64,000 nucleotides of DNA, taken from positions 2,914,001 through 2,978,000 of the forward strand of contig NZ_SZYH01000001.1 of assembly GCF_005298175.1 (NCBI RefSeq). Direction: 5' to 3'. Each line of letters begins with the position of its first letter. The stretch's first letter is position 1. Shown here piece by piece: positions 23,899-52,299 of the stretch. This DNA is from Marinobacter panjinensis. GTDB lineage: Bacteria; Pseudomonadota; Gammaproteobacteria; Pseudomonadales; Oleiphilaceae. The position numbers and the translations under genes were made by a program. A model generated the notes under the pieces. That model did no database searches. It was not told where the DNA came from and saw nothing but the letters and a program-made list of their open reading frames with translations.

Positions 23899-23985
23899 CT
23901 GGGGGTGGTGGTTTATTTCCTTGGGAAAAAGAACTCGCTTCGCTCAGACACCTTTTTCCTGGCGGAAATAAACCACCACCCCCAG
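23899..23985. repeat. Type 1 palindromic repeat, copy A
   Basis: A perfect 22-bp inverted repeat (23899-23920 and 23964-23985) encloses a 43-base centre. The centre carries GGAAAAAG, the conserved CTCGCTTCGCTCAGACAC, then CTTTTTCC. Arms run G-rich then T-rich on the left and mirror as A-rich then C-rich on the right. It lies between the radical SAM gene and the symporter gene. The same centre recurs in copies B-E with different arms. Confidence 0.9.
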
Positions 23986-24093
23986 ACCGCGGCAAATACA
24001 CTGCCATTCGTTTGGTTAAAAGAAAAAGCGGGTTCTGACTGGGTTGCTATGCCTTAGGTGTCGGGGACGGCATGGCGACGTTGAAGACAGAGG

Positions 24094-24196
24094 CAGTGGT
24101 GGAGGGGGTTCAAAAAATGTGGAGCGCCAGGGATGGCGCGACCAAGCCCCCCATGGATGGGTTCACGGGCGTTTTTTTGAACCCCCTCCACCACTG
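24094..24196. repeat. Type 2 nested palindromic repeat, copy a
   Basis: A perfect 24-bp inverted repeat (24094-24117 and 24173-24196) encloses two smaller hairpins, GCGCCA-GGGA-TGGCGC and CCCAT-GG-ATGGG. Read on the minus strand the small hairpins have ATCCC/ATCCAT-like loops. The right arm ends a T7 run, but that run is inside the stem. It lies about 75 bases before the symporter start and 110 bases after type 1 copy A. Confidence 0.85.
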
Positions 24197-24269
24197 ACTC
24201 AGGCACCCAAGGCACGAAGTAACCGAACCAGCCCCGGATAGTAAACAAAGAACGAGGACAGAACAGACA

Positions 24270-25673
24270 ATGAATTTCACGGAAGCTTCCCTGTTTTGGG
24301 GATTTTTGGTGGTTTATGGGGCGGTGATGTATGTGTTGTCGCCCAAGAGCAAGAACGCCAATTCCTTCTACAAGGGAGCCGATGACGAAGGCAATCCGGT
24401 GGGTCAGTGGTCGCTGACGGCGAGTATTTTTATCAGCTGGATCTTTGCCAAGTCCGTTACCAATGCCGCCAACCTGGGTGCCGCTTACGGTGTGACCGGC
24501 GGGCTGGCGTATGCCAGTTACTGGCTGTCGATTCCGGTGGCCGGTTATATTATTTACCTGATTCGTACCCAGACCGGGGCCCGCAGTCTGCAGGATTTTC
24601 TGACGTCCCGTTTTGGCCGGCTTGCCAGTCTGGCGTTTGCGGCGGCGATTCTGATTCGGTTGTACAACGAGGTCTGGAGCAATACCGCGGTGGTTGGTGG
24701 TTATTTCGGGCTGCCGGGTGAGTGGGAGTACTACGGCGCAGCCATGCTGTTTACGGTGTTTACCCTGGCCTACAGCCTCAAGGGCGGTTTGCGGTCGTCG
24801 ATTTTTACCGATGTGATCCAGGCTTTTGTGTTCGTGTTCTTTGTCGGGGCGGTGCTCTTCCTGATTGTGCCGGCCAACGACACCAGTGCCCTGCTGACCA
24901 ACGGTGAGTTCAAGCTCAATGCCGGTTTTGACCTGTTGCTGGTGGCCCTTTTGCAGATGTTCAGCTATCCCTTTCATGATCCGGTGCTGACTGACCGCGG
25001 TTTCGTGAATAAGGAGAAGACCATGCTCAAGAGCTTTGTGGTGGCCGGGCTGCTGGGCTTTGTGGCGGTGTTTATCTTCAGCCTGGTGGGTGTCCATGCC
25101 CGGCTGAACGGTATTGAAGCCATGGGTAACGCGCCGGCGGCGGTGGGTCAGTCGCTGGGGCTGGCGGCGCTGTTCTTTATGAGTGTGGTGATGATGACGT
25201 CAGCCGGCTCAACGCTGGACTCCACCTTCAGTTCACTGGCCAAGTCACTGGCGGTGGATCTTCCGCGGCTGGCGAAGCGGGCGAAGGACCGGTTGCCAAG
25301 CGTGCGTGTGGGGGCGGTGATCATGATTGTGTTCGCGCTTCTGGGTAACCTGCCGATGTTCGCCGGTACTGATATTCTGAAAGCAACGACCATTTCCGGC
25401 ACCATGGTGATGGGACTGGCGCCGGTATTCCTGTTCTACGGCTTTACCCGCTGGTCACCGTGGAGTTTTCATCTGAGTTTCTGGACTGGCCTGGGATTGG
25501 GTGTGTTGCTTGCCGTGGGGCTGATCCCGGCGAGCTGGGCCATTGGTGACGGCGCCTACGCGATGCTCCTTGGGGTCAACGCCTACGGCTTCCTGATCTG
25601 TACGGCCGGCTTCTTCCTGCCGCTGGTGGCCCGCAAGCTGGCGGGGCGCTCGCTGGCGGCCGGTGAGGCCTAG
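24270..25673 (+). CDS. Sodium:solute symporter family transporter
   Basis: The product has 467 residues with about thirteen hydrophobic helices. The N-terminus MNFTEASLFWGFLVVYGAVMYVLSP, then SLTASIFISWIFAKSVTNAANLGAAYGVTGGLAYASYWLSIPVAGYIIY, SLQDFLTSRFG and the late MTSAGSTLDSTFSSLAKSLAVDL match the SSS (LeuT-fold) superfamily, with the Na2-type Ser/Thr cluster in the last motif. The substrate cannot be read from sequence. GAGGA lies upstream. A metallophosphoesterase-like gene follows after eight bases. Confidence 0.88.
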   Translation: MNFTEASLFWGFLVVYGAVMYVLSPKSKNANSFYKGADDEGNPVGQWSLTASIFISWIFAKSVTNAANLGAAYGVTGGLAYASYWLSIPVAGYIIYLIRTQTGARSLQDFLTSRFGRLASLAFAAAILIRLYNEVWSNTAVVGGYFGLPGEWEYYGAAMLFTVFTLAYSLKGGLRSSIFTDVIQAFVFVFFVGAVLFLIVPANDTSALLTNGEFKLNAGFDLLLVALLQMFSYPFHDPVLTDRGFVNKEKTMLKSFVVAGLLGFVAVFIFSLVGVHARLNGIEAMGNAPAAVGQSLGLAALFFMSVVMMTSAGSTLDSTFSSLAKSLAVDLPRLAKRAKDRLPSVRVGAVIMIVFALLGNLPMFAGTDILKATTISGTMVMGLAPVFLFYGFTRWSPWSFHLSFWTGLGLGVLLAVGLIPASWAIGDGAYAMLLGVNAYGFLICTAGFFLPLVARKLAGRSLAAGEA

Positions 25674-25681
25674 GTATTGTT

Positions 25682-26632
25682 ATGAACGAAGGCAGAAGCT
25701 GCCCCCTGGCTTATCGATATAGACCTTCCGATTTGTGCCGGGAGCCCCGCCAGGTCACCGAAGATGTGCTTTATATTATCGGCGGGCTCTACGGAAACCC
25801 ATACGCCCTCGATGAAATTGAGCGGATGGCGCTTGCAGAGGAGCGCCAGGGGCACCGGGTCAAGCTGGTCTTCAATGGCGATTTCAACTGGTTCAACGCC
25901 AGCGATACGCTGTTCAGGGAAATCAATTGCCGGGTGCTGGATCATATGGTCAGCCTGGGTAACGTGGATTATGAGCTGGCTACCCCGAGTGACGGTGCGG
26001 GCTGTGGCTGTGCCTACCCGGACTTTGTTGGCCAGGGCGTGGTCGAGCGCTCCAATCACATCATGGAGCGGCTGCAGGGAGTGGCTGGTAACCACCCGGA
26101 CATCCAGAAACGACTCCGCCTGCTGCCACGCTATCGCTGCCTGTTATTTGGAGGCCTAAAGATTTTGGTGGTGCACGGCGATCCTGAGTCCCTAGCGGGA
26201 TGGGGGCTGGCCCATGAGTCGTTTGTGGCGGGCAACGAATTGCAGCTGACGGAATGGTTTGCCGAGTCCGGTGCAGATGTGATTGCCTCCACCCACACCT
26301 GCCTGCCTGTGCTCTGGTCAGGAACGGTGGAAGAGCGCAGTCGCGTTGCGGTTAATAACGGCTCCGCGGGTATGGGTAACCTGGCGCGGGACCCGCGGGG
26401 GCTGGTTACCCGCATTGGTCTGACAAGTCCGCAGTTTGAACCTGTTGCCGGTCTTGAGCGGCGAGGGCTGAACGTATCTCTGGTGCCCGTTGCCTACGAT
26501 CTGGGAGCGTGGTTGCCACGCTTCGATCAGCTGTGGCCCGGTGGTTCGGCCGCTGCTGTGTCTTACCGGCGCCGCATCGTCGACGGTACATCCCTGACGT
26601 CAGATCGTATTGTTTTTCCTCCTGCTGTTTAA
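25682..26632 (+). CDS. Metallophosphoesterase-like protein with degenerate first motif
   Basis: The product has 316 residues. Later calcineurin-type motifs are recognisable: LVFNGDFNWF (GD), SLGNVDYEL (GN-D), ILVVHGDPES (H-GD) and ASTHTCLP (GHTH-like STHT). The expected opening DxHGN is LYGNP in the context VLYIIGGLYGNPYALDE, so the first Asp and His metal ligands are missing. Substrate hydrolysis may therefore be altered or lost. The ribosome binding site is weak and the gene starts eight bases after the symporter stop, so coupling is likely. Confidence 0.75.
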   Translation: MNEGRSCPLAYRYRPSDLCREPRQVTEDVLYIIGGLYGNPYALDEIERMALAEERQGHRVKLVFNGDFNWFNASDTLFREINCRVLDHMVSLGNVDYELATPSDGAGCGCAYPDFVGQGVVERSNHIMERLQGVAGNHPDIQKRLRLLPRYRCLLFGGLKILVVHGDPESLAGWGLAHESFVAGNELQLTEWFAESGADVIASTHTCLPVLWSGTVEERSRVAVNNGSAGMGNLARDPRGLVTRIGLTSPQFEPVAGLERRGLNVSLVPVAYDLGAWLPRFDQLWPGGSAAAVSYRRRIVDGTSLTSDRIVFPPAV

Positions 26633-26718
26633 CAGATTTGTCACTGGCGCAGGCCACAATCCGGTCTATTCTTAGAGAGTAGGCCAGCATTCCTGGCAGG
26701 GTAGTCAGTAAGCCTGAC

Positions 26719-26746
26719 TTGAAATATATTTTGTGGTCTATATAAT
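26719..26746 (+). promoter_or_regulatory. Sigma-70-type promoter for ectA
   Basis: TTGAAA (26719-26724), a 16-base AT-rich spacer and TATAAT (26741-26746) stand 35 bases before the ectA start in an otherwise GC-rich genome. This is the clearest housekeeping or stationary-phase-type promoter in the window and fits osmotically inducible expression of the ectoine genes. Confidence 0.7.
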
Positions 26747-26781
26747 TTACCGCTAACTTTTTGAGGCGAATCGATCACGTT

Positions 26782-27297
26782 ATGACATCAGAAGGCTCGA
26801 ATACCACCGCCATCAACCTCCGCACACCGGTCAAGGATGATGGCTACAGGCTCCACCAGCTGGTTGCGGAATGCCCGCCGCTGGATCCCAACTCGATCTA
26901 CTGCAACCTCCTGCAGTGTAGCCACTTTGCCGAAACCGGCGTGGCGGCGGAGATAGACGGCGATCTGGTCGGCTTTATTTCCGGTTATATTCCCCCCCAG
27001 CAGCCCGAAACCGTGTTTGTATGGCAAGTGGCCGTTCACGAGAAAGGTCGTGGGCAAGGTCTGGCCAAACGGATGCTGAAGGCGATTGTGGCCCGGGACG
27101 CGTGCAAAGACGTGACCCATATGGAAACCACCATCACCGAAGACAACGAGGCTTCCTGGGCGTTGTTCCGGTCATTTGCCCGTGACATGGGTGCTGAGCT
27201 CACCTTTCACGAGCACTTTGAGAAAGAAACCCACTTCGGCGGCAAGCACGACTCCGAATTTCTGCTCCGCATCGGGCCTTTCACGAAGCCGGCGTAG
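26782..27297 (+). CDS. ectA: L-2,4-diaminobutyrate N-gamma-acetyltransferase EctA
   Basis: The product is a 171-residue GNAT enzyme starting at MTSEGSN. It transfers acetyl from acetyl-CoA to 2,4-diaminobutyrate, the second step of ectoine synthesis. Family blocks are PVKDDGYRLHQLVAECPPLDPNSIYCNLLQCSHF, the CoA-binding WQVAVHEKGRGQGLAKRML (Q/RxxGxG/A) and METTITEDNEASWALFRSFA. A strong promoter lies just upstream and ectB follows after about 130 bases. The chosen ATG leaves an N-terminus typical of EctA. Confidence 0.95.
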   Translation: MTSEGSNTTAINLRTPVKDDGYRLHQLVAECPPLDPNSIYCNLLQCSHFAETGVAAEIDGDLVGFISGYIPPQQPETVFVWQVAVHEKGRGQGLAKRMLKAIVARDACKDVTHMETTITEDNEASWALFRSFARDMGAELTFHEHFEKETHFGGKHDSEFLLRIGPFTKPA

Positions 27298-27428
27298 CAG
27301 CCTTCCCGAACGATCGATACCCCTGTTTGGACTGGCCGGCAGATTGCTGAGGTGAATCTGTCACAACGGCCTCAACCAACGTGCCACCGCACAACTACCT
27401 CGAACCTGACATGCTAAGAGGCAAAACC

Positions 27429-28697
27429 ATGGAACTTTTCAAGTCGACTGAATCCGAAGTGCGTGTTTACTCCCGTGCCTTTCCGGTGATTTTTAACCGT
27501 GCCAAGAATGCGCACCTCTACACCGAGGATGGCAAGGAATACCTGGACTTTCTGGCCGGCGCCGGATCCCTGAATTATGGCCACAACAACGACATTCTCA
27601 AGAAAGCCCTGCTGGAGTACATTGAAAGCGATGGTGTCAGTCAGGGTCTGGATATGTTCACCACGGCAAAGCACGACTTCATTGAGTCCTACAAGAATCA
27701 CATCCTGGATCCCCGTGGCCTGAACTACAAAATGCAGTTCACTGGCCCAACCGGCACCAACTGTGTGGAAGCGGCCCTGAAACTGGCCCGTAAGGTGAAA
27801 GGTCGCAATGGCATCATTTCCTTCACCAACGGTTTCCATGGCGTGACCATGGGTGCGGTTGCCGCTACCGGTAACAAGCACCACCGTGGCGGTGTCGGTA
27901 CCCCGCTGGGTAATGTGGACTTCATGTTCTACGACGGCTATCTGGGCGAGAACGTCGATACCCTGGAGATCATGGACAAGGTGTTGTCTGACGGGTCTTC
28001 CGGCTTCGAACTGCCGGCTGCGGTAATTGTTGAAGCGGTCCAGGGTGAAGGCGGCCTTAACGCTGCCCGTGCCGAGTGGCTGCAGGGCCTTGAGAAGCTG
28101 TGCAAAAAGCACGATATCCTGCTGATTCTGGACGACATCCAGGCAGGTAACGGTCGTACCGGTGAGTTCTTCAGCTTCGAGTTTGCCGGCATCAAGCCGG
28201 ACATTGTCACCGTTTCCAAGTCGCTGAGCGGTTACGGCCTGCCCATGGCGCTGGTGCTGTTCAAGCCGGAGCTTGATGTCTGGAGTTCGGGTGAGCACAA
28301 CGGCACCTTCCGTGGCAACAACATGGCGTTCGTGACGGCTCGGGCAGCCGTTGAGACGTATTGGAAAGACGACGCCTTTGCCAACGAGGTGAAGGCCAAA
28401 ACCGAGGTGCTGGGTGAAGGTTTGCAGGCTATCTGTGACAAGTACCCGGGCGAGTTCAAAATGAAGGGCCGCGGCCTGATGCGTGGCATCGAAGCGACCC
28501 ACGCCGAGCTGACCGACAAGATTACCAGCCGTGCCTTCGAGAAGGGGCTGATTATTGAAACCAGTGGCCCCAACGACGAAGTGATCAAATGCCTGATGCC
28601 GCTGACCACCAGCGAGGATGATCTGCGCAAAGGTGCTAAACTTCTGGCACAGAGCGTGGACGAAATCATGCAGGAAGGGATGAGCAAGGCGTCCTGA
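27429..28697 (+). CDS. ectB: Diaminobutyrate-2-oxoglutarate transaminase EctB
   Basis: The product has 422 residues starting at [25 protein letters not shown] upstream selects this ATG over a frame 16 codons longer. It is a class-III PLP aminotransferase converting aspartate semialdehyde plus glutamate to 2,4-diaminobutyrate, the first ectoine-specific step. Motifs are [19 protein letters not shown], the PLP Asp region [19 protein letters not shown] and the Schiff-base Lys in [15 protein letters not shown]. Length is standard. It is followed 52 bases later by the aspartokinase gene, leaving no space for ectC. Confidence 0.96.
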
Positions 28698-28749
28698 GAC
28701 GACTGCCATTCCCCAACCATTCATTCTGCAGGATAACAACGGTAACACT

Positions 28750-30192
28750 ATGACTAGCGAACGACATACCGTAGAGAAGATCGGCGGCACCTCGATGAGT
28801 AACTACGAGGCTGTGCGCGACAACATCATTCTCGGCGGGCGCGAAAAGGACGACCTCTACCAGCGCATATTCGTGGTCTCCGCCTATGGCGGTGTCACCG
28901 ATGAACTGCTGGAGCACAAGAAAACCGGCGAGCCGGGCGTTTATGCCCTGTTTGCCGATGCGGAATCCGACTGGGCCTGGGGTGACGACCTCACCAAGCT
29001 GATCAAGTTCCTGACCGACATCAACGGCGAACTGTTCGGGGACCCCATGCTGAAGCAGCAGGCGGACCAGTTCATTACCGACCGGATTGAAGGTGTACGT
29101 GGTTGCCTGATCGATCTGCAACGCCTGTGTTCCTACGGCCAGTTCCAGCTGGAAGAACACCTGCTGACGGTACGTGAAATGCTGGCTGGCATTGGCGAGG
29201 CCCACAGCGCCTTCAACACCGCTCTCAAGCTTCAGCAGGAAGGTATCAACGCACGCTTCGTGGACCTGACAGGCTGGCGCGACAACGAGTTGCTGCCGCT
29301 GGACGAAAAGCTCAAACAGGCCTTCGATGCCGTGGACCTGACCCGTGAGCTGCCCATCGTCACCGGGTATGCACAGTGCAAGGAAGGCCTGATGCGGACC
29401 TTTGACCGGGGCTACAGCGAGATGACCTTCAGCCGGGTAGCGGTGATCACCAACGCCCGTGAGGCGATCATTCACAAGGAATACCATCTCAGCTCTGCCG
29501 ACCCCAACATTGTGGGCGCAGACAAGGTGGTTCCTCTTGGCCGTACCAATTACGATGTGGCCGACCAGCTGGCCAACCTGGGCATGGAAGCCATTCATCC
29601 CCGTGCCGGCAAAGGCATGCGCCAGAATGAAATTCCGCTGCGGGTGATGAATACCTTCGAGCCGGAGCACACCGGTACCCTGATCACCGGCGACTACGTC
29701 AGTGAGAAGCCGCAGGTGGAGATCATCGCCGGCAACAAGGGCGTGTTTGCCATTGAGGTGTTTGACCAGGACATGCAGGGCGAACCGGGCTCGGACCGCC
29801 GCATTCTGGAAGTGCTTGGCCGATTCAAGGTGCGCTTTATCTCCAAGGACACCAACGCCAACACCATTACCCACTACGTCGACAGCACGCTCAAGCACGT
29901 CAAGCGGGTGGTACGGGCGTTGAAGGATGAGTTCCCCAACGCGGAAATCAGTACCCGCAAGGTGGCGATTGTTTCTGCCATTGGCAGTGATATCAAGATA
30001 CCGGGTATCCTCGCAAAGTCCGTCAAGGCGCTGGCAGATGAGGAAATCAGCATTCTGGCCCTGCACCAGTGCATGCGCCAGGTGGACATCCAGTTTGTGG
30101 TGGATGAAGACGCCTACAAGAAGACCATCGTGGCGCTCCACGGCGTGCTGATTGAGCCCTACAATCACGAGTACGCTATCGTCGCAGCATAA
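28750..30192 (+). CDS. ask: Ectoine-associated aspartate kinase (Ask_Ect)
   Basis: The product is a 480-residue aspartokinase that phosphorylates aspartate to feed aspartate semialdehyde to EctB. The N-terminal VEKIGGTSM carries the KxGGTS nucleotide/substrate motif. The catalytic kinase domain runs to about residue 300, and C-terminal ACT-like repeats include RFKVRFISKDTNANTITHYVD and ISTRKVAIVSAIGSDIKIPGILAKSVKALADEEISILALHQ. Its place directly after ectB and its sequence style fit the feedback-insensitive ectoine-dedicated isoenzyme described for ectABC-ask operons. Confidence 0.92.
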   Translation: MTSERHTVEKIGGTSMSNYEAVRDNIILGGREKDDLYQRIFVVSAYGGVTDELLEHKKTGEPGVYALFADAESDWAWGDDLTKLIKFLTDINGELFGDPMLKQQADQFITDRIEGVRGCLIDLQRLCSYGQFQLEEHLLTVREMLAGIGEAHSAFNTALKLQQEGINARFVDLTGWRDNELLPLDEKLKQAFDAVDLTRELPIVTGYAQCKEGLMRTFDRGYSEMTFSRVAVITNAREAIIHKEYHLSSADPNIVGADKVVPLGRTNYDVADQLANLGMEAIHPRAGKGMRQNEIPLRVMNTFEPEHTGTLITGDYVSEKPQVEIIAGNKGVFAIEVFDQDMQGEPGSDRRILEVLGRFKVRFISKDTNANTITHYVDSTLKHVKRVVRALKDEFPNAEISTRKVAIVSAIGSDIKIPGILAKSVKALADEEISILALHQCMRQVDIQFVVDEDAYKKTIVALHGVLIEPYNHEYAIVAA

Positions 30193-30311
30193 CCGGGCGG
30201 GATTCATCCCGTCCGTAATTGCCGCAATTAGCTCCTGAGCCCCCGGTAGCCGGGAATCCATGGCACTGTTCCGCGCGTATCCTTTATAAACTTACGATCG
30301 GAACCTGTGCC

Positions 30312-31310
30312 ATGACTGATGTCCAGAGCCCGGGGCCGTCTCCGACCATAGCCCACTCCGGCGAAACGGACTCCCTGGTAGGGCTGTACTTCAGGGATGC
30401 GTCCCGTTACGAATTGCTGACCAACGAAGGTGAGCGTCGTCTTTCCCGCAGATTGTCTTTCTGTTACCGGGTCATCTCTGTGGAGATGGGCTTGCCGGAG
30501 GACACTCCCCAGACCTTTCGTGAAGTTATCGGAAGCCTGGGGGATGCCTGCGCCTTCTCTACCCGGTGCCGTCGCGCCTACCATCTTGCCACCGACAGCC
30601 GGCAGCGGCTGATCCGCAGCAACCTGCGGCTTGCTGTCCATATTGCGCGGCGCTACGCCAACCGCGGTATTCCGATGTCGGATGTAATCCAGGATGCCAA
30701 TGTTGGCCTTATCAAGGCCGTTGAGCGATTCGATCCCACCAAAGGCTTCCGCTTCTCCACCTACGCCTACTGGTGGATAAGCGAAGAGGTCAAACGTTGT
30801 ATGAAGCGGGGCACCCGTCTGGTGCACACCCCCGAGAACGTGGTGGATGAAATCCGTCTGCTCCAGAAAACCTCCCTGGCGCTTCACCAGACCCTGGGCC
30901 GCACGCCGTCACAGAGCGAGCTGGCACGGGAAATTGAGGTATCGCCATCGCGCATCGGAGAACTGCGGGCGCTGGCCATCATGGAAGTGTCTGTGGATAT
31001 GCCGGTGACCACCGAAGGTGGAATTACCCTTGGTGACAGCCTGAGTGCAGGTGAGCAGTCCGCGCCGGACCATGACATGCTCCATCGCGACCGCAAGCGC
31101 ACTCTGGCGGCGCTGCTGGCTGATCTGAGTGCGCGGGAACAGGACGTACTGGCACGGCGTTTCGGGCTTGGCCTGCCAGAGCCGGAGACCCTGCAGGTGA
31201 TTTCCGACCATCTCGGTATCAGCCGCGAACGGGTGAGGCAGATTGAAAAGGGCGCCCTCAAGAAACTGAGAAATCTGGTTGAAAGCCCGGAGGCGGCACT
31301 CCGGAGCTAG
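30312..31310 (+). CDS. Group-2 (RpoS-like) sigma-70 factor
   Basis: The product has 332 residues starting at MTDVQSPG. Region 1.2 is LVGLYFRDASRYELLTNEGERRLSRRL. Region 2 is RQRLIRSNLRLAVHIARRYANRGIPMSDVIQDANVGLIKAVERFDPTKGFRFSTYAYWWI. Region 3 is TLGRTPSQSELAREIEVSPSRIGEL and region 4 LSAREQDVLARRFGLGLPEPETLQVISDHLGISRERVRQIEKGALKKL. The layout is that of a stationary-phase/stress sigma, with slightly atypical residues (QDANVGL for QEGNLGL), suggesting a paralogue rather than the main RpoS. It sits after the ect genes and could drive them; that is inference. Confidence 0.88.
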   Translation: MTDVQSPGPSPTIAHSGETDSLVGLYFRDASRYELLTNEGERRLSRRLSFCYRVISVEMGLPEDTPQTFREVIGSLGDACAFSTRCRRAYHLATDSRQRLIRSNLRLAVHIARRYANRGIPMSDVIQDANVGLIKAVERFDPTKGFRFSTYAYWWISEEVKRCMKRGTRLVHTPENVVDEIRLLQKTSLALHQTLGRTPSQSELAREIEVSPSRIGELRALAIMEVSVDMPVTTEGGITLGDSLSAGEQSAPDHDMLHRDRKRTLAALLADLSAREQDVLARRFGLGLPEPETLQVISDHLGISRERVRQIEKGALKKLRNLVESPEAALRS

Positions 31311-31333
31311 GCTCCGGAGGTTCAGGCTGGTTC

Positions 31334-43884: not shown

Positions 43885-44991
43885 ATGGCGAACCCGGGCC
43901 CGGAAAAACAACGGCAGATGCTGGGAGTGTTCCTGGTTCCCGGTGTGTATCTGCGGGTGCTGGCGGATGTGGTGCGACAACTGGGTTACAACGACCGCAG
44001 CCTTTATGAGGGCATGGACGTTGCTCCCCATGACCTGAAGTCCAACGACAGCCGGGTGTTCGTCACCGACGCCATTGTGATGGTAGAGCGGGCCCTGGAT
44101 CTGGCCGGTAAAGACGGCCTGAGCTTCATGCTGGCCCGCGAACTGCGGGTCACCATTCACGGCACACTCGGTTTTGCCGCTCTGACCAGCCCCACGCTGG
44201 CAGGTGCCCTGGATTCGGTGCGGCGCTACCTGCAACTGCGGGTGCCGTTCCTGACCATGACCCTTACCGACACCGGTGACCATGTGCTGGTGCGGTTACG
44301 GTCCGAGTTCGACGTACCTACCCAGTACCGCTTCCTGGCAGAAACCGTGAGCGCCACCCTGATGATGCTGGCAGAGCAACTGATCGACCGCGAAGATGCG
44401 GAAAAACAGGGATTTGCGCTGGTGGATGGCAAACTTCCCGGTGTGAAAGTGCAACTGACATCACCGGAACCGGCCTACTACCGCAAATTCGCTTCCCAGC
44501 TGCCGGTGCCGTTCGAATACGGCCAGCCGGAAGAAACCATGGTGTTCCCCAAGGGCCTGCTGGACACCCGGATGCGGCTGGCGGATGCAGAGGCATCCCG
44601 GATGGCCCGGGACCAGTGCGAGTTCGAGCTGCAAAAAGCCCTGAAAGACCAGGGCGACATCACCTATGCCATCCGCAACATGCTCCACATGATGCCGGGC
44701 CCACTGCCCTCCCTGGAGGCCATGGCCGAACGTTTCTGCGTATCGTCCCGAACCCTGAAGCGGCGGCTGGCCGAAAAGGACACCACTTACCGGGAGATAG
44801 TGGAAGCCGTACTGAAAGACCGCGCCATTCAGCTGTTGCGCTACACCAACCAGTCAGTCAGCGAGATCGCCTACGAGCTGGGCTACGCCGACCTGTCCAA
44901 TTTCAGCCGCGCCTTCCGCAAGTGGACCGGCAAGTCCGCCAGCGAATTCCGCGAAGGCGGTCTGGACCCGGCTCCTGAAGTTGGGCCTTGA
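43885..44991 (+). CDS. AraC-family transcriptional regulator
   Basis: The product has 368 residues starting at MANPGPEK (AGGAT upstream; MSAPTTKK eleven codons earlier is possible). The N-terminal 200 residues form an arabinose-binding-like effector domain (GVYLRVLADVVRQLGYNDRSLYEGMDV). The C-terminus is the double helix-turn-helix (LPSLEAMAERFCVSSRTLKRRLAEKDTTYREIVEAVLKDRAIQLLRYTNQSVSEIAYELGYADLSNFSRAFRKWTGKSASEFR). It resembles OruR/ArgR-like regulators of fatty-acid-linked genes. The divergent COG3687 gene is the likely target. Confidence 0.92.
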   Translation: MANPGPEKQRQMLGVFLVPGVYLRVLADVVRQLGYNDRSLYEGMDVAPHDLKSNDSRVFVTDAIVMVERALDLAGKDGLSFMLARELRVTIHGTLGFAALTSPTLAGALDSVRRYLQLRVPFLTMTLTDTGDHVLVRLRSEFDVPTQYRFLAETVSATLMMLAEQLIDREDAEKQGFALVDGKLPGVKVQLTSPEPAYYRKFASQLPVPFEYGQPEETMVFPKGLLDTRMRLADAEASRMARDQCEFELQKALKDQGDITYAIRNMLHMMPGPLPSLEAMAERFCVSSRTLKRRLAEKDTTYREIVEAVLKDRAIQLLRYTNQSVSEIAYELGYADLSNFSRAFRKWTGKSASEFREGGLDPAPEVGP

Positions 44992-45036
44992 GTTTGGTGC
45001 CCTGGTCTTTTAGGCCTCTGGCTTGGGAGCGTGGTT

Positions 45037-45125
45037 GCGGGGTGGTGGTATTTATTTTTTCGAAAAATGAACTCGCTTCGCTCAGACACCATTTTTTGCG
45101 AGAAAAATAAATACCACCACCCCAC
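45037..45125. repeat. Type 1 palindromic repeat, copy B
   Basis: A perfect 21-bp inverted repeat (45039-45059 and 45103-45123), weakly extended outward, surrounds the conserved CTCGCTTCGCTCAGACAC centre flanked by GAAAAAT and ATTTTTTG. The arms are G-rich then T-rich and differ in sequence from other copies. It lies 45 bases downstream of the AraC gene and about 90 bases before copy C. Confidence 0.9.
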
Positions 45126-45214
45126 ACCCAGAGACCATGGGAGATGGCTGTCTTTCGTTTCGTTCACTTGCTTTCAGCTTGTAATCGGGGACTATGCCCT
45201 AACTGTCTGACGGA

Positions 45215-45301
45215 TGGGGGGCTGGATTATTTTTCCGCCAGGAAAAAGGTGTCTGAGCGCAGCGAGTTCTTTTTCCCAAGGAAAAATAATCCAGCCCCCC
45301 A
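45215..45301. repeat. Type 1 palindromic repeat, copy C (inverted orientation)
   Basis: A perfect 22-bp inverted repeat (45215-45236 and 45280-45301) holds the conserved centre on the opposite strand relative to copy B, with the variant CTCGCTGCGCTCAGACAC. The two copies thus form a head-to-head pair in the 378-base space between the AraC gene and the TM2 gene. Apart from these repeats and the TM2 ribosome binding site, that space holds nothing recognisable. Confidence 0.9.
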
Positions 45302-45369
45302 ACCAGGCACCAGAACCAGCAGGCTGGGGCCCAAGAATCCAGCCACAACCAACGTCACAAGGAAACCAA

Positions 45370-45777
45370 ATGGAAATCAACCAGGATACCCACAGCAAAC
45401 TCATCGGCTACCTGCTCTGGATCTTCGGATTCCTGGGGGCACACCGGTTCTACTATGGCAAGCCGATTACCGGCACCATCTGGTTCTTTACGCTCGGGCT
45501 GCTGTTTATCGGCTGGTTCATCGACCTGTTCCTGATCCCCGCCATGGACCGGGAAGCCGACATACGGTATGAGTCCGGTGAAGTGAGTTACAACATTGGC
45601 TGGATTCTGCTGACCTTCCTGGGGGTGTTTGGGCTCCACCGGATGTACATGGGCAAGTGGATCACCGGGATCCTCTACCTGCTCACCGGTGGTTTGTTCC
45701 TGGTGGGCGTGCTCTATGATTTCTGGACGCTGAATGACCAGATTTCGCAGCGTAACCGGGAAGTAAGGTTCGGTTAA
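45370..45777 (+). CDS. Tandem TM2-domain membrane protein
   Basis: The product has 135 residues starting at MEINQDTH (AAGGAAA upstream; the longer frame reads through repeat C and is spurious). There are two TM2 units, each a helix pair with a G-x-HRxYxGK hairpin: LIGYLLWIFGFLGAHRFYYGKPITGTIWF and IGWILLTFLGVFGLHRMYMGKWITGILYLLTGG. Most TM2 proteins have one unit, so this is an internal duplication. The function is unknown. It ends three bases from the convergent wax ester synthase gene. Confidence 0.85.
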   Translation: MEINQDTHSKLIGYLLWIFGFLGAHRFYYGKPITGTIWFFTLGLLFIGWFIDLFLIPAMDREADIRYESGEVSYNIGWILLTFLGVFGLHRMYMGKWITGILYLLTGGLFLVGVLYDFWTLNDQISQRNREVRFG

Positions 45778-45780
45778 ACC

Positions 45781-47148
45781 TCAAATCCCGGCTGCGCTTT
45801 CCAGTTCGGCCAGGCCCTCTTCCAGGTAGTCCAGCATTCGCTGCAGGCTGGGGAGGGTGCGGCGGCAGCCGATCAGGCCGAATTCTACCTGGTCGCAATA
45901 GCTGGTCAGGGTCATGTTCAGGGCAATCCGGTCCATGGCGATGGACACCGGATACATCCCCTCAAGTCTCGCTCCGTTCCAGTAACTGGGTTCCTTTGGC
46001 CCGGGTACGTTGGATATGACCACGTTGAAGGTCTGCCACTTCGGCGCCAGGCCGGTCAGCAGGTTGAAGCCTGCCGGTGCCAGCAACAAAGCGGTGTAGT
46101 TCAGGATTTCCTCTGAAGACATGTTGGCGTAGCGCTCTTTGGAAGCTTTCACGTCTTCATGGATATAGCGCAACCGCTCAGCCGCGTCGTTCAGATGAGT
46201 GCCCAGCGACGCCAGGATGATGCCCACCTGGTTCCCGCCCGAGCTGTCATCCTTGCGCAGGGAGACGGGCACCATCGCCACCAGTGGCTTCTCCGGCAGG
46301 GCATCCTGGTTCATCAGGTAGGTTCGCAGTGCCGTGGCGCACATGGCCATGACCACGTCATTGACTGTTGTTTCGTAGGCCTTGCACACCGCCTTGATGC
46401 GCTTGAGGCAATAGGACTGGGCCGCGAAGCGTCGTGAGCCGGTGATCTTGCCGTTGAGCACACATTGGGGGGCGTGGAAGATGGAGTCGTAGGCGGGGTC
46501 CTTTCGCGCGCGGTTGACGGTACTCAACAGTGCCTTGGACACAGCCGGCACCGTGCCCAGCTGTTTACCGGACTCCCCCAGCAGATGGGCGACGTTGCGC
46601 CACATGGACGGGCCGTTGTCGTCATTTTTGTTGCCGCTGCGCAGCGGCAGTGACCATATCGGGGGCATGTTCCGCTGTTCCGGGTCCTGGGACAGCATGC
46701 GCTGGAACAGCCGCATGGCGGAAACGCCATCCACCAGGGAGTGGTGTATCTTGATATAAACGGCGAACTGTCGGTCTTTCAGGCCCTCAATGAGGTGGAA
46801 CTCCCACATCGGCCGTTCCCGGTCCATCAGGTGGCTGTGTTCTGCGGAGACGAACGCCAGCAATTCCCGGATACGGCCCGGGGTAGGCAGAGCTTCAAAC
46901 CGGAAATGGTGCTCCAGGTCCAGATGCTCGTCTTCCACCCAGAATGGTTGGCCGAACCGGTTGTTCAGGCGCCGGTCGAACGGAGGGGTCACCGTACATT
47001 GTTCCCGCAACTGGTCTGCCAGCTGTGCGACATAGTCATCCGGTGCATCTTCAGGGAACGAGAACAGCTGCAGGCCACCAACGTGCATGGGTTGCTGGCG
47101 TTTTTCCAGCCACAGAAACACCTGGTCTATCGGGCTCAGTGGTTTCAC
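45781..47148 (-). CDS. Wax ester synthase/diacylglycerol acyltransferase (WS/DGAT)
   Basis: The product has 455 residues from a GTG (KPLSPIDQVFLWLEKRQQPMHVGGLQLFSFPE), the N-terminus expected for Marinobacter WS1-type enzymes; the open frame runs 44 codons further but is not supported. The catalytic HHxxxDG motif is HHSLVDG at residues 135-141. Later blocks are TTVNDVVMAMCATALRTYL, SSGGNQVGIILASLGTHL and NVVISNVPGPKEPSYWNGARLEGMYPVS. It esterifies acyl-CoA with fatty alcohols or diacylglycerol for storage lipid at the cytoplasmic membrane. No terminator separates it from the TM2 gene. Confidence 0.95.
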   Translation of the reverse strand: MKPLSPIDQVFLWLEKRQQPMHVGGLQLFSFPEDAPDDYVAQLADQLREQCTVTPPFDRRLNNRFGQPFWVEDEHLDLEHHFRFEALPTPGRIRELLAFVSAEHSHLMDRERPMWEFHLIEGLKDRQFAVYIKIHHSLVDGVSAMRLFQRMLSQDPEQRNMPPIWSLPLRSGNKNDDNGPSMWRNVAHLLGESGKQLGTVPAVSKALLSTVNRARKDPAYDSIFHAPQCVLNGKITGSRRFAAQSYCLKRIKAVCKAYETTVNDVVMAMCATALRTYLMNQDALPEKPLVAMVPVSLRKDDSSGGNQVGIILASLGTHLNDAAERLRYIHEDVKASKERYANMSSEEILNYTALLLAPAGFNLLTGLAPKWQTFNVVISNVPGPKEPSYWNGARLEGMYPVSIAMDRIALNMTLTSYCDQVEFGLIGCRRTLPSLQRMLDYLEEGLAELESAAGI

Positions 47149-47352
47149 GGTATGAATCTCGCATTGTTCTGGTTGTTGTCTGACAGACAGTGTTGCAGCA
47201 TTTAAGAGTCGGTGGAAGTACCGGTTGCTGGCCGAACAGGCCTGAAACTCCGACTTTGGCAGGTCTGCCCGGGATTTCACGACGTAGGTTCATGGTGGCT
47301 TCAAGAGACAGAATTCAGCGCGACAGCAGCGCAGGACAAAAGGGGACATTCA

Positions 47353-48435
47353 GTGAAACCACTCGTCAGGCGACTGGGCTTTCTGGCCGGATTGTGGTGT
47401 TTTGCGCTATCGCAGGTCCAGGCGCAGGATCGCCCCGGGGTTGAACTGGAGCAGGTTGAAACCTCCGATATCATCAGCGAAGTCAGCCTGAACGGTACCG
47501 TCAATGCCCTGCGTACCTCCCGGCTGTCCACGGCGGTGGCTGGGCTTGTTGAGGATGTGCGGGTCGAAACCGGGGGCAGGGTTGCCCGGGGCGATCTGTT
47601 GATGAGTCTGGACGATGAACAGGCTGAGTTCGAGCTCGAAAGCGCCCGTGCGGAGGCGTCAGAAGCCCGTGTCCGGTTGGAGGAGGCGCAACGCCGGCTG
47701 ACCGAAGCCCGTTCGGTGGGGGCAGGCCGTAATATTGCGGCGACAGAAGTCAGCGCCCGCGAGAGCGAGGTTGCCGCCACGGAGGCCGCCCTTGCTCGTT
47801 TGCGTGCCGAAGAAAAACGGCGCCAGGTTTTACTGGACCGTCATCGCATTGAAGCGCCGTTCGATGGTGTTATCAGCTACCGTGCCAGTGACCTGGGAGA
47901 GTGGGTGACGCCTGGCGACGAGTTGCTGACTCTGGTGGATATCACCAACCTCAGGCTGGATTTTCGGGTACCCCAAGATTATTACCAGCGCATCACCGAC
48001 GCTTCCGAACTACTGGTTCAGGCCAAAGGTCCGGACCAGAAACCGGTTCCGGTCACCATCGAATCCCTGTTGCCGGTCAGCGATAGCCGTGCCAGAACGT
48101 TCCTGCTGCGGGCCACCGGGCCGGAAGAGCTGAAGGTTCTGCCCGGCATGGCGGTGCAGGCAACACTGCGGGTCTCCACCGGTGAACAGGGCCTTACCGT
48201 TTCCCGGGATGCCATTAACCGCTATCCCGACGGCCGCGTCACAGTGTGGATCGCCGAGCCGGCAGATGAAGACCTCTATGAAGTGCGTGAAAAACGGGTG
48301 GAAGTGGGCTCCAGCTTTGATAACCGCATGGAGATTCTCAGTGGTCTTGATGGCGACGAGCACGTGGTGATCCGCGGCAATGAATCCCTGGAGGATGGCG
48401 CCAGGGTGCGGCTAGCCGAACGGGGATCGCGCTGA
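47353..48435 (+). CDS. RND efflux membrane fusion (adaptor) protein
   Basis: The product has 360 residues from GTG 47353 (AGGGGA upstream). A signal peptide ends near QVQAQ. HlyD/AcrA features follow: VSLNGTVNALRTSRLSTAVAGLVEDVRVETGGRVARGDLLMSLDDEQAE (lipoyl half), an alpha-helical hairpin of about 70 residues rich in Glu/Ala/Arg, RIEAPFDGVISYRASDLGEWVTPGDELLTLVD (second lipoyl half) and a beta-barrel/membrane-proximal domain. It links the pump to an outer membrane channel, for which no gene is present here. Its stop overlaps the pump start by one base. Confidence 0.92.
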   Translation: MKPLVRRLGFLAGLWCFALSQVQAQDRPGVELEQVETSDIISEVSLNGTVNALRTSRLSTAVAGLVEDVRVETGGRVARGDLLMSLDDEQAEFELESARAEASEARVRLEEAQRRLTEARSVGAGRNIAATEVSARESEVAATEAALARLRAEEKRRQVLLDRHRIEAPFDGVISYRASDLGEWVTPGDELLTLVDITNLRLDFRVPQDYYQRITDASELLVQAKGPDQKPVPVTIESLLPVSDSRARTFLLRATGPEELKVLPGMAVQATLRVSTGEQGLTVSRDAINRYPDGRVTVWIAEPADEDLYEVREKRVEVGSSFDNRMEILSGLDGDEHVVIRGNESLEDGARVRLAERGSR

Positions 48436-51400
48436 TGTTTGCCGGAGTCATTCGCCACGGCACCCTGGTGACCGTGGTCACGCTGATTATTGCGGTTATC
48501 GGTGTTGCAGCGGCGTTGCGCATTCCGGTGCAGATGATCCCGGACCTGGAAACCCGCACGATCACCGTGGAAACCCAGTGGCCGGGGGCAACACCACAGG
48601 ACATCGAGAAGGAAATCCTGATTGAGCAGGAACGGTATCTCCGCAACGTACCGAATCTCAGCGAGATGGCTTCCTCTGCTTCCAGTGGCGCCGCTGAGAT
48701 CGAGCTGGAGTTTCCCTTCGGTGTTGATATTACCGAGACCCTGATCCAGGTGAACAACGCCCTCAGCCAGGTTTCCAACTACCCCACCAACGTCGACGAG
48801 CCCCGTATCGTGGCGGCTTCGTTCTCCTCCAACGCCTTCATGTATTTCCGGGTTTCCACCTTGCCGGGCAATCCCCGGGAGCTGGATATCGACCTGATGC
48901 GCGATTTTGTGGAGGACCGTGTCCGCCCCCGCATGGAAAGCGTGCGCGGGGTTTCCGAAGTATCAGTGGGCGGCGGCGCCGACCGGCAGATGCAGATCAC
49001 CGTGGATGAAGCAAAGCTGGCACAGCGCGGCCTTAGCCTGCTGGACCTGCGGGATGCCATCACCAGCCGCAACCAGGACGTGTCAGGGGGCGAAGTGGAT
49101 GCCGGCAAGCGCCGCTACCTGCTGCGCACCGTCGGACGATTCCGCGACATCGAGGAGCTGCGCGCTCTGGTAGTCTCCCGTACCGGAGACAGTGTGGTCC
49201 GGCTGTCTGAGGTGGCGAGCGTGCGGCAGGATCATTCCCGCATCCGCGAGTTGTCGTACATCAACGGTCAGCGGGTGCTGGGCCTGCAGGTGCGACGGGA
49301 GAGCGGCTCCAACGTCATCGATATCAAGTGGTCGATGATGGAGGAGGTGGAGAACATCAACCGGGAAGTGCTGGAGCCGGAAGGCATGCGGCTGGCCCTG
49401 ACTGCCGACGATGCCCGTTATGTGGAAGCGTCAGTTGCCAATGTCTGGACCAACCTGGGCATCGGTGCCGTGTTTGCCACCCTGGTGATGTTCCTGTTTC
49501 TGCGTTCATCCAGGGCAACCTTTGTGGGCGTGGTGGGTATTCCTTTATGTGCGATCGCGGCCTTCCTCGGGCTGATGATCACCGGCCGTACCATCAACGT
49601 GATTTCCCTGGCTGGCGTGGCCTTTGCCATCGGCATGACGGTGGATAACAGCATCGTGGTGCTGGAGAACATCGAGCGCCACCGTCGCCTGGGGCTGGAC
49701 AAGTTCGAGTCGGCGCTGAAAGGCGTGCAGGAGGTGTGGCCGGCGGTACTCGCCTCCACCATGACCACCATCCTGGTGTTCCTGCCGATCCTGTTTATCG
49801 AGGAGGAAGCCGGGCAGCTGTATTCCGACGTGGCCATTGCCATTTCCTCAGCCATTTTCGCGTCGATGCTGGTGGCCGTCACTGTCATTCCGATGCTGAG
49901 TGCACGGCTTGATTTTGGCATCCGTGAAACCGATACCGACCAGTTTGGCAATACGGTGTCTGGCGGATGGGCAGGCGCCATCGTGGGTGCCGTGCGGCGG
50001 ATGGTCAGCGGGCCGTTCAGGCGCGCCGCGGTTATTCTGGGCACCATTGCGTTGAGTACCTGGATCATCCTGTTCCTCACCCCACCGGCGGAATACCTGC
50101 CTGAGGGCGAAGAGCCAAAAACCTTCGCTTCGATGAATGCCCCGCCGGGTTACAACCTCGCCGAGATGGAGAGCATCGCCAAACAGGTGGAAGATCACTT
50201 CCTGCCCCACGTACAGGCAGACCCGGAAGCCTATGAAAGCGGCGAAACCCCGATACCGCCCCTGGCCTACCTGAACATGCGGGTGAGCCCCACCAACGTG
50301 CGGATTATCGCGGAAACGGTGAACGCCCGGCACATTGAAGCACTGATGGACCAGATCACCGGGTTTTATGAGCAGTTTCCCGGCATGCGTGCGTTTGCCG
50401 CCAAGGGCTCCATTATTTCCAGCAACGACGGCGGCACCCGCAGCATTAACCTTGATATCTCCGGGCCGGATCTGGTGTCCATCTACGAAGTCTCCAACAT
50501 CGCCTACGGCCGCGCGCGGGAGATTTTTGATGACCCCCGCATCCAGACTCAACCCGCCACCCTCTCGCTGGCCCAGCCACTGATCCAGGTGCGGCCAGAC
50601 TGGGGTCGGGCTGCGGAACTGGGCCTCGATACCGAGGCGATCGGTTTCACCGTGGCCTCGCTGACAGAAGGCTCCTATGTCGACGACTTCTTCCTGGATG
50701 ACGACAAGATCGACATTTATATCTATGGCAGCGAGGGCAGGAACCCGAGCCTGGACGAGCTTCCGGATGTGATGGTGCATACGCCCCAGGGTGCAACCCT
50801 GCCGTTGTCGAGCCTGGCAACCATCGAGGAAACCGTGGACACCAGCACTGTGCGCCGGCTGGATGGCCGCCGTACCGTGACCCTCAACGTCATCCCGCCG
50901 GATGATGTGCCGCTGGAGGCCGGGGTTGAACGGGTACGGACAGAACTGCTAGGCGCCATGCGTGACAGCGGCGAATTGCCAACCGGCGTGTCCATAGACA
51001 TCTCCGGCGCCAGCGACCAGCTCAACGCCACCCGTGATGCCCTGAGCGGCAATTTCATCATTGCGGTGGTGATCGTGTACCTGTTGCTGGTGGCCATCTT
51101 CGCCCACTGGGGTTTCCCGCTGCTGATCCTGACGGCCATTCCCCTGGGCATTGCTGGCGGCATCGTTGGCCTGGCGTTGATGAACCTGGTGGGCGGTCTA
51201 TTGCCAAAAATCGGCCTGCTGCCCCTGAGCCAGCCCTTCGACATGATCACCATGCTGGGCTTCCTGATTCTGATGGGAACGGTGGTCAACAACCCGATCC
51301 TGGTGGTGGAACAGGCAAGGCAGAATCTGCGACACAAGGACGTTTCGGTGGTGGATGCGGTCATCGGCGCCGTGGAAACCCGCCTGCGACCCATTGCCAT

Positions 51401-51590
51401 GACCACCCTGACCACCATCTGCGGGCTGTCACCGCTGGTCTTCCTGCCGGGCGAAGGCACCGAGCTCTACCGCGGCGTCGGCGCTATCGTTCTGTTTGGT
51501 CTGGCGGGGGCAGCTACTGTGACTGTTACCTTTTTGCCGGCGCTTACGGTATTCGTTCTGGGATGGCGGGATAAGCGGCCTGTTCGGTAA
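48435..51590 (+). CDS. RND family efflux pump permease
   Basis: The product is a 1051-residue inner membrane proton antiporter with the twelve-helix, two-large-loop RND layout. It begins MFAGVIRHGTLVTVVTLIIAVIGVAAALRIPVQMIPDLETRTITVETQWPGATPQDIE. Repeat features are AFAIGMTVDNSIVVLENIERHRRLG (TM4 Asp region) and late ILMGTVVNNPILVVEQARQNLRH, followed by RLRPIAMTTLTTICGLSPLV. It most resembles efflux pumps of the HAE-1/MMPL-like VexF/OqxB-type group. The substrate is unknown. Translation is coupled to the adaptor gene (TGATG). Confidence 0.93.
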   Translation: MFAGVIRHGTLVTVVTLIIAVIGVAAALRIPVQMIPDLETRTITVETQWPGATPQDIEKEILIEQERYLRNVPNLSEMASSASSGAAEIELEFPFGVDITETLIQVNNALSQVSNYPTNVDEPRIVAASFSSNAFMYFRVSTLPGNPRELDIDLMRDFVEDRVRPRMESVRGVSEVSVGGGADRQMQITVDEAKLAQRGLSLLDLRDAITSRNQDVSGGEVDAGKRRYLLRTVGRFRDIEELRALVVSRTGDSVVRLSEVASVRQDHSRIRELSYINGQRVLGLQVRRESGSNVIDIKWSMMEEVENINREVLEPEGMRLALTADDARYVEASVANVWTNLGIGAVFATLVMFLFLRSSRATFVGVVGIPLCAIAAFLGLMITGRTINVISLAGVAFAIGMTVDNSIVVLENIERHRRLGLDKFESALKGVQEVWPAVLASTMTTILVFLPILFIEEEAGQLYSDVAIAISSAIFASMLVAVTVIPMLSARLDFGIRETDTDQFGNTVSGGWAGAIVGAVRRMVSGPFRRAAVILGTIALSTWIILFLTPPAEYLPEGEEPKTFASMNAPPGYNLAEMESIAKQVEDHFLPHVQADPEAYESGETPIPPLAYLNMRVSPTNVRIIAETVNARHIEALMDQITGFYEQFPGMRAFAAKGSIISSNDGGTRSINLDISGPDLVSIYEVSNIAYGRAREIFDDPRIQTQPATLSLAQPLIQVRPDWGRAAELGLDTEAIGFTVASLTEGSYVDDFFLDDDKIDIYIYGSEGRNPSLDELPDVMVHTPQGATLPLSSLATIEETVDTSTVRRLDGRRTVTLNVIPPDDVPLEAGVERVRTELLGAMRDSGELPTGVSIDISGASDQLNATRDALSGNFIIAVVIVYLLLVAIFAHWGFPLLILTAIPLGIAGGIVGLALMNLVGGLLPKIGLLPLSQPFDMITMLGFLILMGTVVNNPILVVEQARQNLRHKDVSVVDAVIGAVETRLRPIAMTTLTTICGLSPLVFLPGEGTELYRGVGAIVLFGLAGAATVTVTFLPALTVFVLGWRDKRPVR

Positions 51591-51609
51591 TGGGGGAGTC
51601 GCCGCTTCG

Positions 51610-51696
51610 GGGGGGGGGTTATTTTTTCTTTGGGAAAAAGAACTCGCTGCGCTCAGACACCTTTTTCCTGGCAGAAAAAATAACCCCCCCCCCCCA
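51610..51696. repeat. Type 1 palindromic repeat, copy D (homopolymeric arms)
   Basis: A perfect 21-bp inverted repeat (51610-51630 and 51674-51694) begins with ten G and ends with twelve C, so the outer arms are homopolymer tracts. The centre carries GGAAAAAG, CTCGCTGCGCTCAGACAC and CTTTTTCC. It lies between the convergent RND pump and nirD genes. The unequal G10/C12 tracts suggest slippage after formation. Confidence 0.9.
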
Positions 51697-51750
51697 AATC
51701 GGCTTTTCAGGCATTGTGCCTGGCCGCTTTCGGGACTCGGTGATGACCGG

Positions 51751-52119
51751 TTATGCGGCGGCTGATTCCTTGTTGACTGCCGGGATTTCTACCCGGACGT
51801 TGTTGCCATCCAACAGGACCGGGTAGGTTTTAACAGCTACATCCTCATCTTCCAGGCACCGACCGGTCTGCAAATTGAAGTGCTGCTTGTACAGCGGTGA
51901 AGCCACCACCGGCTGCCCTTTCAGATCACCGGTAATACCCCTTGCCAACACGTTCTTACCGGTAAACGGATCGGTATGGCTGACAGCAAACAACGCCGGC
52001 AACCGATGCGGCAGATAAAACACCGCCACCGGCCCGTCTTCAGTCCAGACTGCAACACCGGACTCCGGCACAAGGTCCTCAACGGTACAAACAACATCCC
52101 AGGAAGTGCGTGCTTTCAT
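51751..52119 (-). CDS. nirD: Nitrite reductase small subunit NirD
   Basis: The product has 122 residues starting at MKARTSWDVV (GGAGAA upstream; the longer frame adds six residues). It has a Rieske-like fold: DLVPESGVAVWTEDGPVAVFYLPHRLPALFAVSHTDPFTGKNVLARGI and KGQPVVASPLYKQHFNLQTGRCLEDEDVAVKTYPV. The Cys/His cluster ligands are absent, as is normal for NirD. It partners NirB for NADH-dependent reduction of nitrite to ammonium in the cytoplasm. It is separated from nirB by 199 bases containing type 1 repeat E. Confidence 0.93.
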   Translation of the reverse strand: MKARTSWDVVCTVEDLVPESGVAVWTEDGPVAVFYLPHRLPALFAVSHTDPFTGKNVLARGITGDLKGQPVVASPLYKQHFNLQTGRCLEDEDVAVKTYPVLLDGNNVRVEIPAVNKESAAA

Positions 52120-52205
52120 AACGTTCTCCAATTCCAATACGGTTTATTCAAAATGTGGGCTCGAGCCCGCTGGAGTCTATAACCAGCGATAACTGGTGAC
52201 CTGAT

Positions 52206-52299
52206 GAGCGTGGGGGTGCGAAATTTTTTCCGCCAGGAAAAGATGTCTGAGCGAAGCGAGTTCTTTTCCCAAGGAAAAATATTTCGCATCCCCGCGCTC
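52206..52299. repeat. Type 1 palindromic repeat, copy E, inside nirBD
   Basis: Imperfect arms of about 26 bases (52206-52231 and 52273-52299) enclose the conserved centre in inverted orientation (GAGCGAAGCGAG on the plus strand). It lies in the nirB-nirD intergenic space, that is inside a cotranscribed unit, so any transcript of nirD must pass it. It is the most diverged copy in its arms. Confidence 0.88.

Follow-up and report, generated by a model that had tools for sequence, protein, structure and literature searches.

Considered as a whole, our comparative analyses suggest that five palindromes in a 64,000-nucleotide stretch of Marinobacter panjinensis DNA (hereafter the window; contig NZ_SZYH01000001.1, positions 2,914,001 to 2,978,000) belong to a family of non-autonomous, probably mobile hairpin modules that are read as folded single-stranded DNA (ssDNA), or as RNA, by a partner, with some copies kept for host use; we give this reading a probability of roughly 0.45. 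Each copy would be a hairpin module working as a folded single strand, the working strand being the complement of the one on which the central sequence was first described. What a partner recognises would be the sequence of the tip and the shape of the stem, so that the tip remains fixed while stem letters drift in compensating pairs. The five copies, with the two open reading frames (ORFs) around sites A and B that matter most below, are as follows.

23895..23989, - strand (the folded strand): hairpin copy 1, with its centre CTCGCTTCGCTCAGACAC at 23934-23951 on +; found by covariance model and pattern.
45033..45127, - strand: hairpin copy 2, with its centre at 45072-45089 on +, making up the left half of a + ... 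- dimer; found by covariance model and pattern.
45211..45305, + strand: hairpin copy 3, right half of the dimer with copy 2, centre 45249-45266 on -; found by covariance model and pattern.
51604..51699, - strand: hairpin copy 4 (site A), centre 51643-51660 on +, lying between the end of a + ORF at 48435-51590 and the end of the nirD-like ORF.
51751..52137, - strand: nirD-like ORF, between copies 4 and 5.
52205..52299, + strand: hairpin copy 5 (site B), centre 52243-52260 on -, in the gap that separates the nirB-like from the nirD-like ORF.
52319..54832, - strand: nirB-like ORF, adjoining copy 5.

The names nirD-like and nirB-like come from a first-pass annotation of the window and are in part our own assumption. 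That annotation had placed the five palindromes correctly to within a few bases, and its 18-base centre has five matches in the window with no more than 3 mismatches, where shuffled sequence would give 0.06. A pattern search of the M. panjinensis genome gave 27 matches, from which two with 3 mismatches and unpaired arms (L026 and L027) were excluded, leaving 25 hairpin copies, of which the window contains 5. From these 25 we built a covariance model, which recovers the five window copies (each also matched, more weakly, on the opposite strand; the next window match has E = 0.7) and in a search of the genome returns the same 25 places. The dispersed family with an invariant centre and self-pairing arms that had been proposed is thus real, and neither homologous arms genome-wide nor centres mostly devoid of paired arms were encountered. 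Two details required correction. The centre is indeed nearly constant, the five window copies varying at no more than two positions, one being T/G and the last C/T, whereas the flanking GGGAAAAAG/CTTTTTCC that had been called constant is replaced by AAAAATG/CATTTTT in the copy at 45033-45127. Likewise the arms, described as non-homologous, are unrelated between phyla, but within Marinobacter they are diverged forms of a single G-rich-then-T-rich design.

Pairing of the arms is specific to each copy. Own arms pair better than all 20 swapped partners in 135/169 elements, with a mean duplex energy of -48.6 against -27.9 for swapped arms; in the other 34/169 a swap did at least as well, often where the partner was drawn from the same family. 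Aligning outward from the centre in 25 elements of non-Marinobacter taxa, a count that carries no control of its own, gave 7 to 39 paired positions in 24 and 3 in the Silvimonas element L044. One Stenotrophomonas copy (L093, 6468-6694) has a left arm resembling its neighbour's and a right arm that matches poorly, as after recombination at the centre.

The copy between nirB and nirD provides a natural experiment revealing which strand is read. We searched 61 Marinobacter genomes for nirB-nirD and examined 30 fetched loci, our own included, finding the hairpin at the same place in 28; deletion scars were seen in L267, which has lost the centre and kept the arms, and in L270, which has lost the whole hairpin. 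Among these orthologues mean loop identity is 96%, against 63% and 67% for the outer arms, and 12 of the 26 pairs in the consensus fold have changes on both sides. The mismatches that persist lean to one strand. When the alignment gives G.T and A.C equal scores, 52 cells with an isolated mismatch on the complement strand hold G.T or T.G and a single cell holds A.C, or 22 distinct contexts against 1 (p about 6e-6), the remainder being 6 A.G, 2 T.T and 2 A.A. When scored on the centre strand, all Marinobacter copies (nirB-nirD loci included) give 39 distinct contexts with A.C against 8 with G.T, and other taxa a weaker 10 against 5, with pyrimidine-pyrimidine over purine-purine mismatches (28 against 1) pointing in the same direction.

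Tolerance of G.T pairs is therefore strand-specific, and together with a loop kept while the arms changed it argues for selection on one folded strand rather than for inverted templating. We conclude from these alignments, and from the folding energies given below, that the complement is the strand under selection, in its folded, single-stranded form. Of the two explanations first offered for the paired arms, compensatory change under selection thus holds up; a mechanism copying one flank into the other does not as the main cause, since pairs made in that way would be Watson-Crick and would not favour one strand. The folded strand at nirBD runs antisense to the operon mRNA, a position that argues against a role within the message; the readings left are folded ssDNA and an RNA transcribed apart from it. 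Gene context rests on ORF calls, with elements inside a called ORF dropped (27/121 and 42/105), and on that basis the folded strand between tandem genes is antisense 28 times and sense 16 times in Marinobacter, with no bias in other taxa (13 against 14).

The anatomy of the module fits a tip that is recognized by sequence. On the complement strand the centre reads 5'-GGTGTYTGAGCGMAGCGAGTTC-3' and caps a long stem. Within it stands GCGAAGC or GCGCAGC, both of the GCGNAGC type, and the position at which the centre varies between T and G corresponds to the N of GNA. Such GCGNAGC or GNA-loop mini-hairpins are extra-stable in DNA, and GCGAAGC is reported to melt at 78 degrees (PMC4686876). The tip is predicted from its letters to refold as GAGC-GNA-GCGAG, in which a GNA triloop would sit on two G-C pairs and might be lengthened by sheared G.A pairs. 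The module is about 95 bases long, or about 200 with a second hairpin of type GTTACTTTT...AAAAGTAAC that in other phyla stands on the 3' side. A AAGTAACCAAA box forms part of this second hairpin; outside Marinobacter it precedes 63/104 centres and follows 3/104 (at most 2 mismatches, within 180 bases), mostly at 69-95 bases from the centre. Close pairs of copies have a fixed order, all 49 of 49 distinct pairs being + then - with a spacing of 149-330 bases, and these span Marinobacter, Stenotrophomonas, Parabacteroides, Phascolarctobacterium, Acidaminococcaceae, Oceanospirillaceae and others, with one on a viral contig.

The main rival to a mobile module is a structured RNA family, in which each half would be a small non-coding RNA (or part of a longer transcript) made from the complement strand, with the dimers as pairs of copies in divergent orientation and a tip serving as a protein-binding or pairing site. 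Covariation combined with a one-strand wobble bias at nirB-nirD, that is G.U pairs on one strand plus compensating changes, is the usual RNA signature, and both the long retention at this locus and the second 3'-side hairpin in other phyla agree with it. RNA folding energy is also lower on the complement strand in 117/152 and 98/115 elements (215/267 in total), the class called Marinobacter in this count and in that of the box including viral contigs, which supply 5 of its 6 box matches. Besides the antisense position at nirBD, however, the database and promoter searches speak against this rival. Rfam gave 5 matches at gathering score over 16 loci, none over a copy, and between 44900 and 52500 of the window the hairpins matched only miRNA-precursor models, all below gathering (best E 0.0003). 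No promoter-like site was found in 51560-52360, the sole one in 44900-45450 lies within copy 3 on the centre strand, and no promoter-like 8-mer is shared in the 5' flanks (the Marinobacter class in that comparison being mixed with Stenotrophomonas loci). We consider an RNA family somewhat unlikely, if the most serious of the alternatives. Two Flavo-1 RNA matches, 3400-3483 (-) and 4267-4350 (+) in L039, flank the Flavobacterium caeni copy at 3698.

Nor do the hairpins seem to act as punctuation between genes, whether as terminator, insulator or stabiliser of mRNA 3' ends. It is true that the copies are intergenic and that in Marinobacter 62/92 of the upstream genes that could be used are oriented toward the element along the centre strand, but in other taxa the figure is an unbiased 30/60, divergent gene pairs flank some of the copies (12 in Marinobacter, 13 elsewhere) and the distribution is patchy. 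Moreover, the five window copies have no T-run beyond either of their ends, whichever strand is read, and TTTTT occurs 25-60 bases from the centre in 1/25 genome copies (L022), in agreement with the earlier statement that these are not ordinary intrinsic terminators; our terminator scans of the window regions covered loops of up to 8 bases. A role of this kind is in our estimation improbable.

The mobile-module reading draws on the distribution of the family, which is multi-copy, patchy and spread over several phyla. A scan of species genomes with the 22-base centre returned at least 120 stretches, and the listed matches include Marinobacter, Stenotrophomonas, Pseudoxanthomonas, Silvimonas, Oceanospirillaceae, Reinekea, Flavobacterium caeni, Parabacteroides goldsteinii, other Bacteroidales, Phascolarctobacterium, Acidaminococcaceae, Blautia, Mogibacterium, WOR-3, Stahlbacteria and Saccharibacteria. 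By record name these fall in Pseudomonadota, Bacteroidota, Bacillota, WOR-3/Stahlbacteria and Saccharibacteria, the last three as metagenome-assembled genomes (MAGs) only; for the genomes we examined further, several of them also MAGs, phylum and genus names are taken from named records. A loop nearly identical letter for letter in Marinobacter, Parabacteroides, Phascolarctobacterium and Saccharibacteria, on different stems, would imply that a large part of the bacterial tree shares one recognition machinery or one horizontally moving element.

Each of 21 genomes reached through non-Marinobacter loci holds 1 to 32 copies of a 17-mer of the centre. The exact 20-mer is present in 12/398 genomes of the window's phylum (our own counted) and in 1/148 of the Bacteroidota, namely G413, the P. 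goldsteinii genome on which that sample was centred; a reversed control pattern gave 0 in every genome of all three sets. The exact 20-mer understates the family, as at least 16 other genomes of 38 in the genus of P. goldsteinii hold parts of the unit by DNA similarity. Copies in P. goldsteinii are 89-95% alike, and in the drafts G399 and G413 a contig often ends at a copy, so counts taken from short-read assemblies may be too low. A viral collection gave 15 matching stretches, from which a phage origin was considered and rejected. Seven mutually similar contigs among them (L293-L298 and L302), which we presume to be inovirus-like, match Vibrio phage records and carry the loop motif; in L295 and L296 the mutual similarity breaks within bases past that motif. 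We found no description of the repeat in open-licence full texts, either by the letters of centre or box or by topic, the topic search covering mostly titles and the starts of abstracts.

Copies are present at some orthologous sites and absent from others. At one Stenotrophomonas site, 28 resolved loci comprise 10 dimers, 2 single centres and 16 loci without a centre (two further loci were not resolvable), and in two of the 16, L368 and L373, the sequence of an element end is still there. Parabacteroides dimers have sharp GTTAC...GTAAC ends within mostly unrelated flanks, and at the site of a P. goldsteinii dimer relatives have other sequence or a plain hairpin. Such presence and absence, combined with dispersed copies in unrelated flanks, is the pattern of a mobile repeat and suggests, by comparison of loci, that the units have moved. 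In two of those relatives (L395 and L396) the dimer site is occupied by a different GTAGGGGC-type palindromic repeat pair, as if it were a hot spot for repeats.

The manner of movement appears to differ from that of familiar transposons. Both ends could be located in 22 of 26 Parabacteroides loci; none of these 22 dimers has a direct repeat of 5 or more, and the mean direct repeat is 0.68 against 0.69 in mismatched controls. This absence of direct target-site duplication does not fit a miniature inverted-repeat element of a DDE transposon. Inverted complementarity beyond the ends is present at some sites. After excluding 14/54 loci in which an end was not found, 18 of the 40 remaining dimers score at least 8 (4/22 in Parabacteroides, 14/18 in Stenotrophomonas) against 69/780 controls. 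At the Stenotrophomonas site L356-L363 the dimer is flanked by outer arms that match each other in inverted orientation over as much as about 41-45 bases (41 at L356), and the order of the two end types of the dimer is reversed between species. At a Parabacteroides site one outer arm of L398 and L399 repeats the opposite flank in inverted form, and the element-less relatives L401 and L402 have that flank too; L400 has a solo hairpin only at the same site.

These outer repeats are what could be brought in favour of arms kept complementary by template switching within the hairpin, without selection. We hold this to be extremely improbable: the G.T intermediates are strand-biased and the loop is conserved, the inverted extension is 0-1 base in 15/22 Parabacteroides dimers (and varies with the chosen end for P. 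goldsteinii copies), and the Stenotrophomonas signal is partly outer sequence common to several sites, which may belong to the element. The outer inverted repeats may be a templating-like signal beyond the element ends; inverted templating itself does not explain the arms. Inverted target duplication as a general product of insertion was likewise set aside, given the 4/22 and 14/18 dimers and the partly shared outer sequence.

If the copies spread as a non-autonomous mobile element, folded ssDNA would be processed by an enzyme supplied in trans, and in general this would not be a Y1 transposase. The first-pass annotation had suggested looking for a linked Y1/REP-type transposase gene as partner, and as a general partner such a gene is not supported. 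Y1 transposases were searched in 37 genomes, 36 with the centre (G070 lacks it), and matched in 20, or 19/36 with the centre; the 17 centre-bearing genomes with no match include a 32-copy Bacteroidaceae and the 17-copy P. goldsteinii, though in drafts and MAGs absence is not proof. We examined 30 of the 54 listed Y1 matches with about 1.5 kb on each side, and one lies near a centre, the RAYT (REP-associated tyrosine transposase; REP, repetitive extragenic palindromic) of the M. panjinensis genome.

That gene bears on a further alternative, an ordinary GTAG REP, RAYT or TIRYT element that would be moved by a Y1 transposase whose gene has the repeat on its flanks. The RAYT does lie between two hairpin copies, GTAGCCTG or GTAGGACTG stands upstream of 9/25 own-genome copies, and our dimers resemble those of REPs and terminal inverted repeats (TIRs) described in PMC3733652. 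Yet the gene sits among its own GTAGGTCGGATTA REPs, and the 19/36 genomes and 1/30 loci do not agree with a family in which a repeat-bearing genome has a RAYT gene flanked by the repeat. The rule given for GTAG REPs (PMC6006769) asks for GTAG or GTGG no more than 0-2 nt away from a stem that has 7-20 pairs and ends in a short loop of 2-5 or in another stem; here GTAGCCTG/GTAGGACTG lie about 50-60 bases from the centre and the unpaired tip is about 20, so that the GTAG REPs were dismissed as a home for the family. The TIRYT TIRs of Stenotrophomonas maltophilia were dismissed as well: the inverted repeats at the two best Y1 matches of strain D457, GGGGTCAGATCCC... and GGGGACGGAGGGGATTAAG..., have neither centre nor box, and are probably TIR families of Di Nocera et al. 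2013 (PMC3733652, published for K279a). We regard a REP, RAYT or TIRYT element as very unlikely. The REP pattern GTAGGTCGGATTA...TAATCCGAC has 89 exact matches in our genome, at C1:1243888-1245043 and elsewhere, some beside the RAYT-like Y1 gene at C1:1244013. Both this REP and the hairpin are absent from the fetched locus of a second Y1 gene, at C1:1755452.

No other partner emerged from the neighbouring genes. Clustering of 968 ORFs and examination of the 25 largest clusters gave no transposase or recombinase candidate, and cross-taxon clusters, presumably common families, reached at most 8 loci. The larger + ... - spans were rejected as autonomous elements, the 3.7 kb Flavobacterium caeni span holding one 827-aa ORF, which we take to be host-like, and the nirD span the nirD-like ORF.

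Several of our results weigh against a mobile module read as folded ssDNA. Tolerance of G.T fits ssDNA and RNA alike. Retention of the hairpin at nirB-nirD across the genus, and the lack of decayed copies at E <= 0.01 in the model search of the genome (150/1385 first-look candidates scored), are more in keeping with a host function than with a parasite. Marinobacter copies are without the AAGTAACCAAA box, so kinship with other phyla is carried by loop and hairpin, and in Silvimonas L044 the arms pair no better than swaps. To these must be added the missing direct target duplication and recurrent neighbour gene described above, and that many of the counted copies are related or orthologous and hence non-independent. 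Some copies, such as the one at nirB-nirD, may since have been retained for a host role.

A broader and more tentative possibility, to which we would incline less than to the mobile module as such, is a pan-bacterial class of elements that share a folded ssDNA strand, a constant GNA-triloop tip, stems read by shape only, an end formed by the GTTACTTTT hairpin and a fixed + then - dimer, moved by a non-Y1, non-DDE recombination without direct target duplication and in part used by the host. Either way, the long-standing question of what maintains extragenic palindromes in bacteria becomes testable with this family.

Among known systems, integron attC sites are sequence-poor, structure-rich ssDNA hairpins read on one strand, and in this the present hairpins may resemble them. 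The d(GCGNAGC) mini-hairpins (PMC4686876) share the same heptamer found within the complement of our centre, although those are isolated oligonucleotides and ours a dispersed repeat family. The TIR families of the TIRYT system in S. maltophilia (PMC3733652) are likewise self-complementary, often form close dimers and occupy the same host genus, but the D457 repeats differ from ours in both centre and box. Closest in general character are REP, BIME and REPIN sequences with their RAYT (PMC3733652 and PMC6006769), which like the present family are small, dispersed, extragenic, palindromic, non-coding and found as inverted dimers, and some Marinobacter copies have GTAG-like letters on the 5' side as REPs do. 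In contrast to the REPs, our family has a loop of about 20 fixed bases instead of 2-5 and stem letters that are not conserved; it is without a general Y1 partner, and carries the same loop across phyla.

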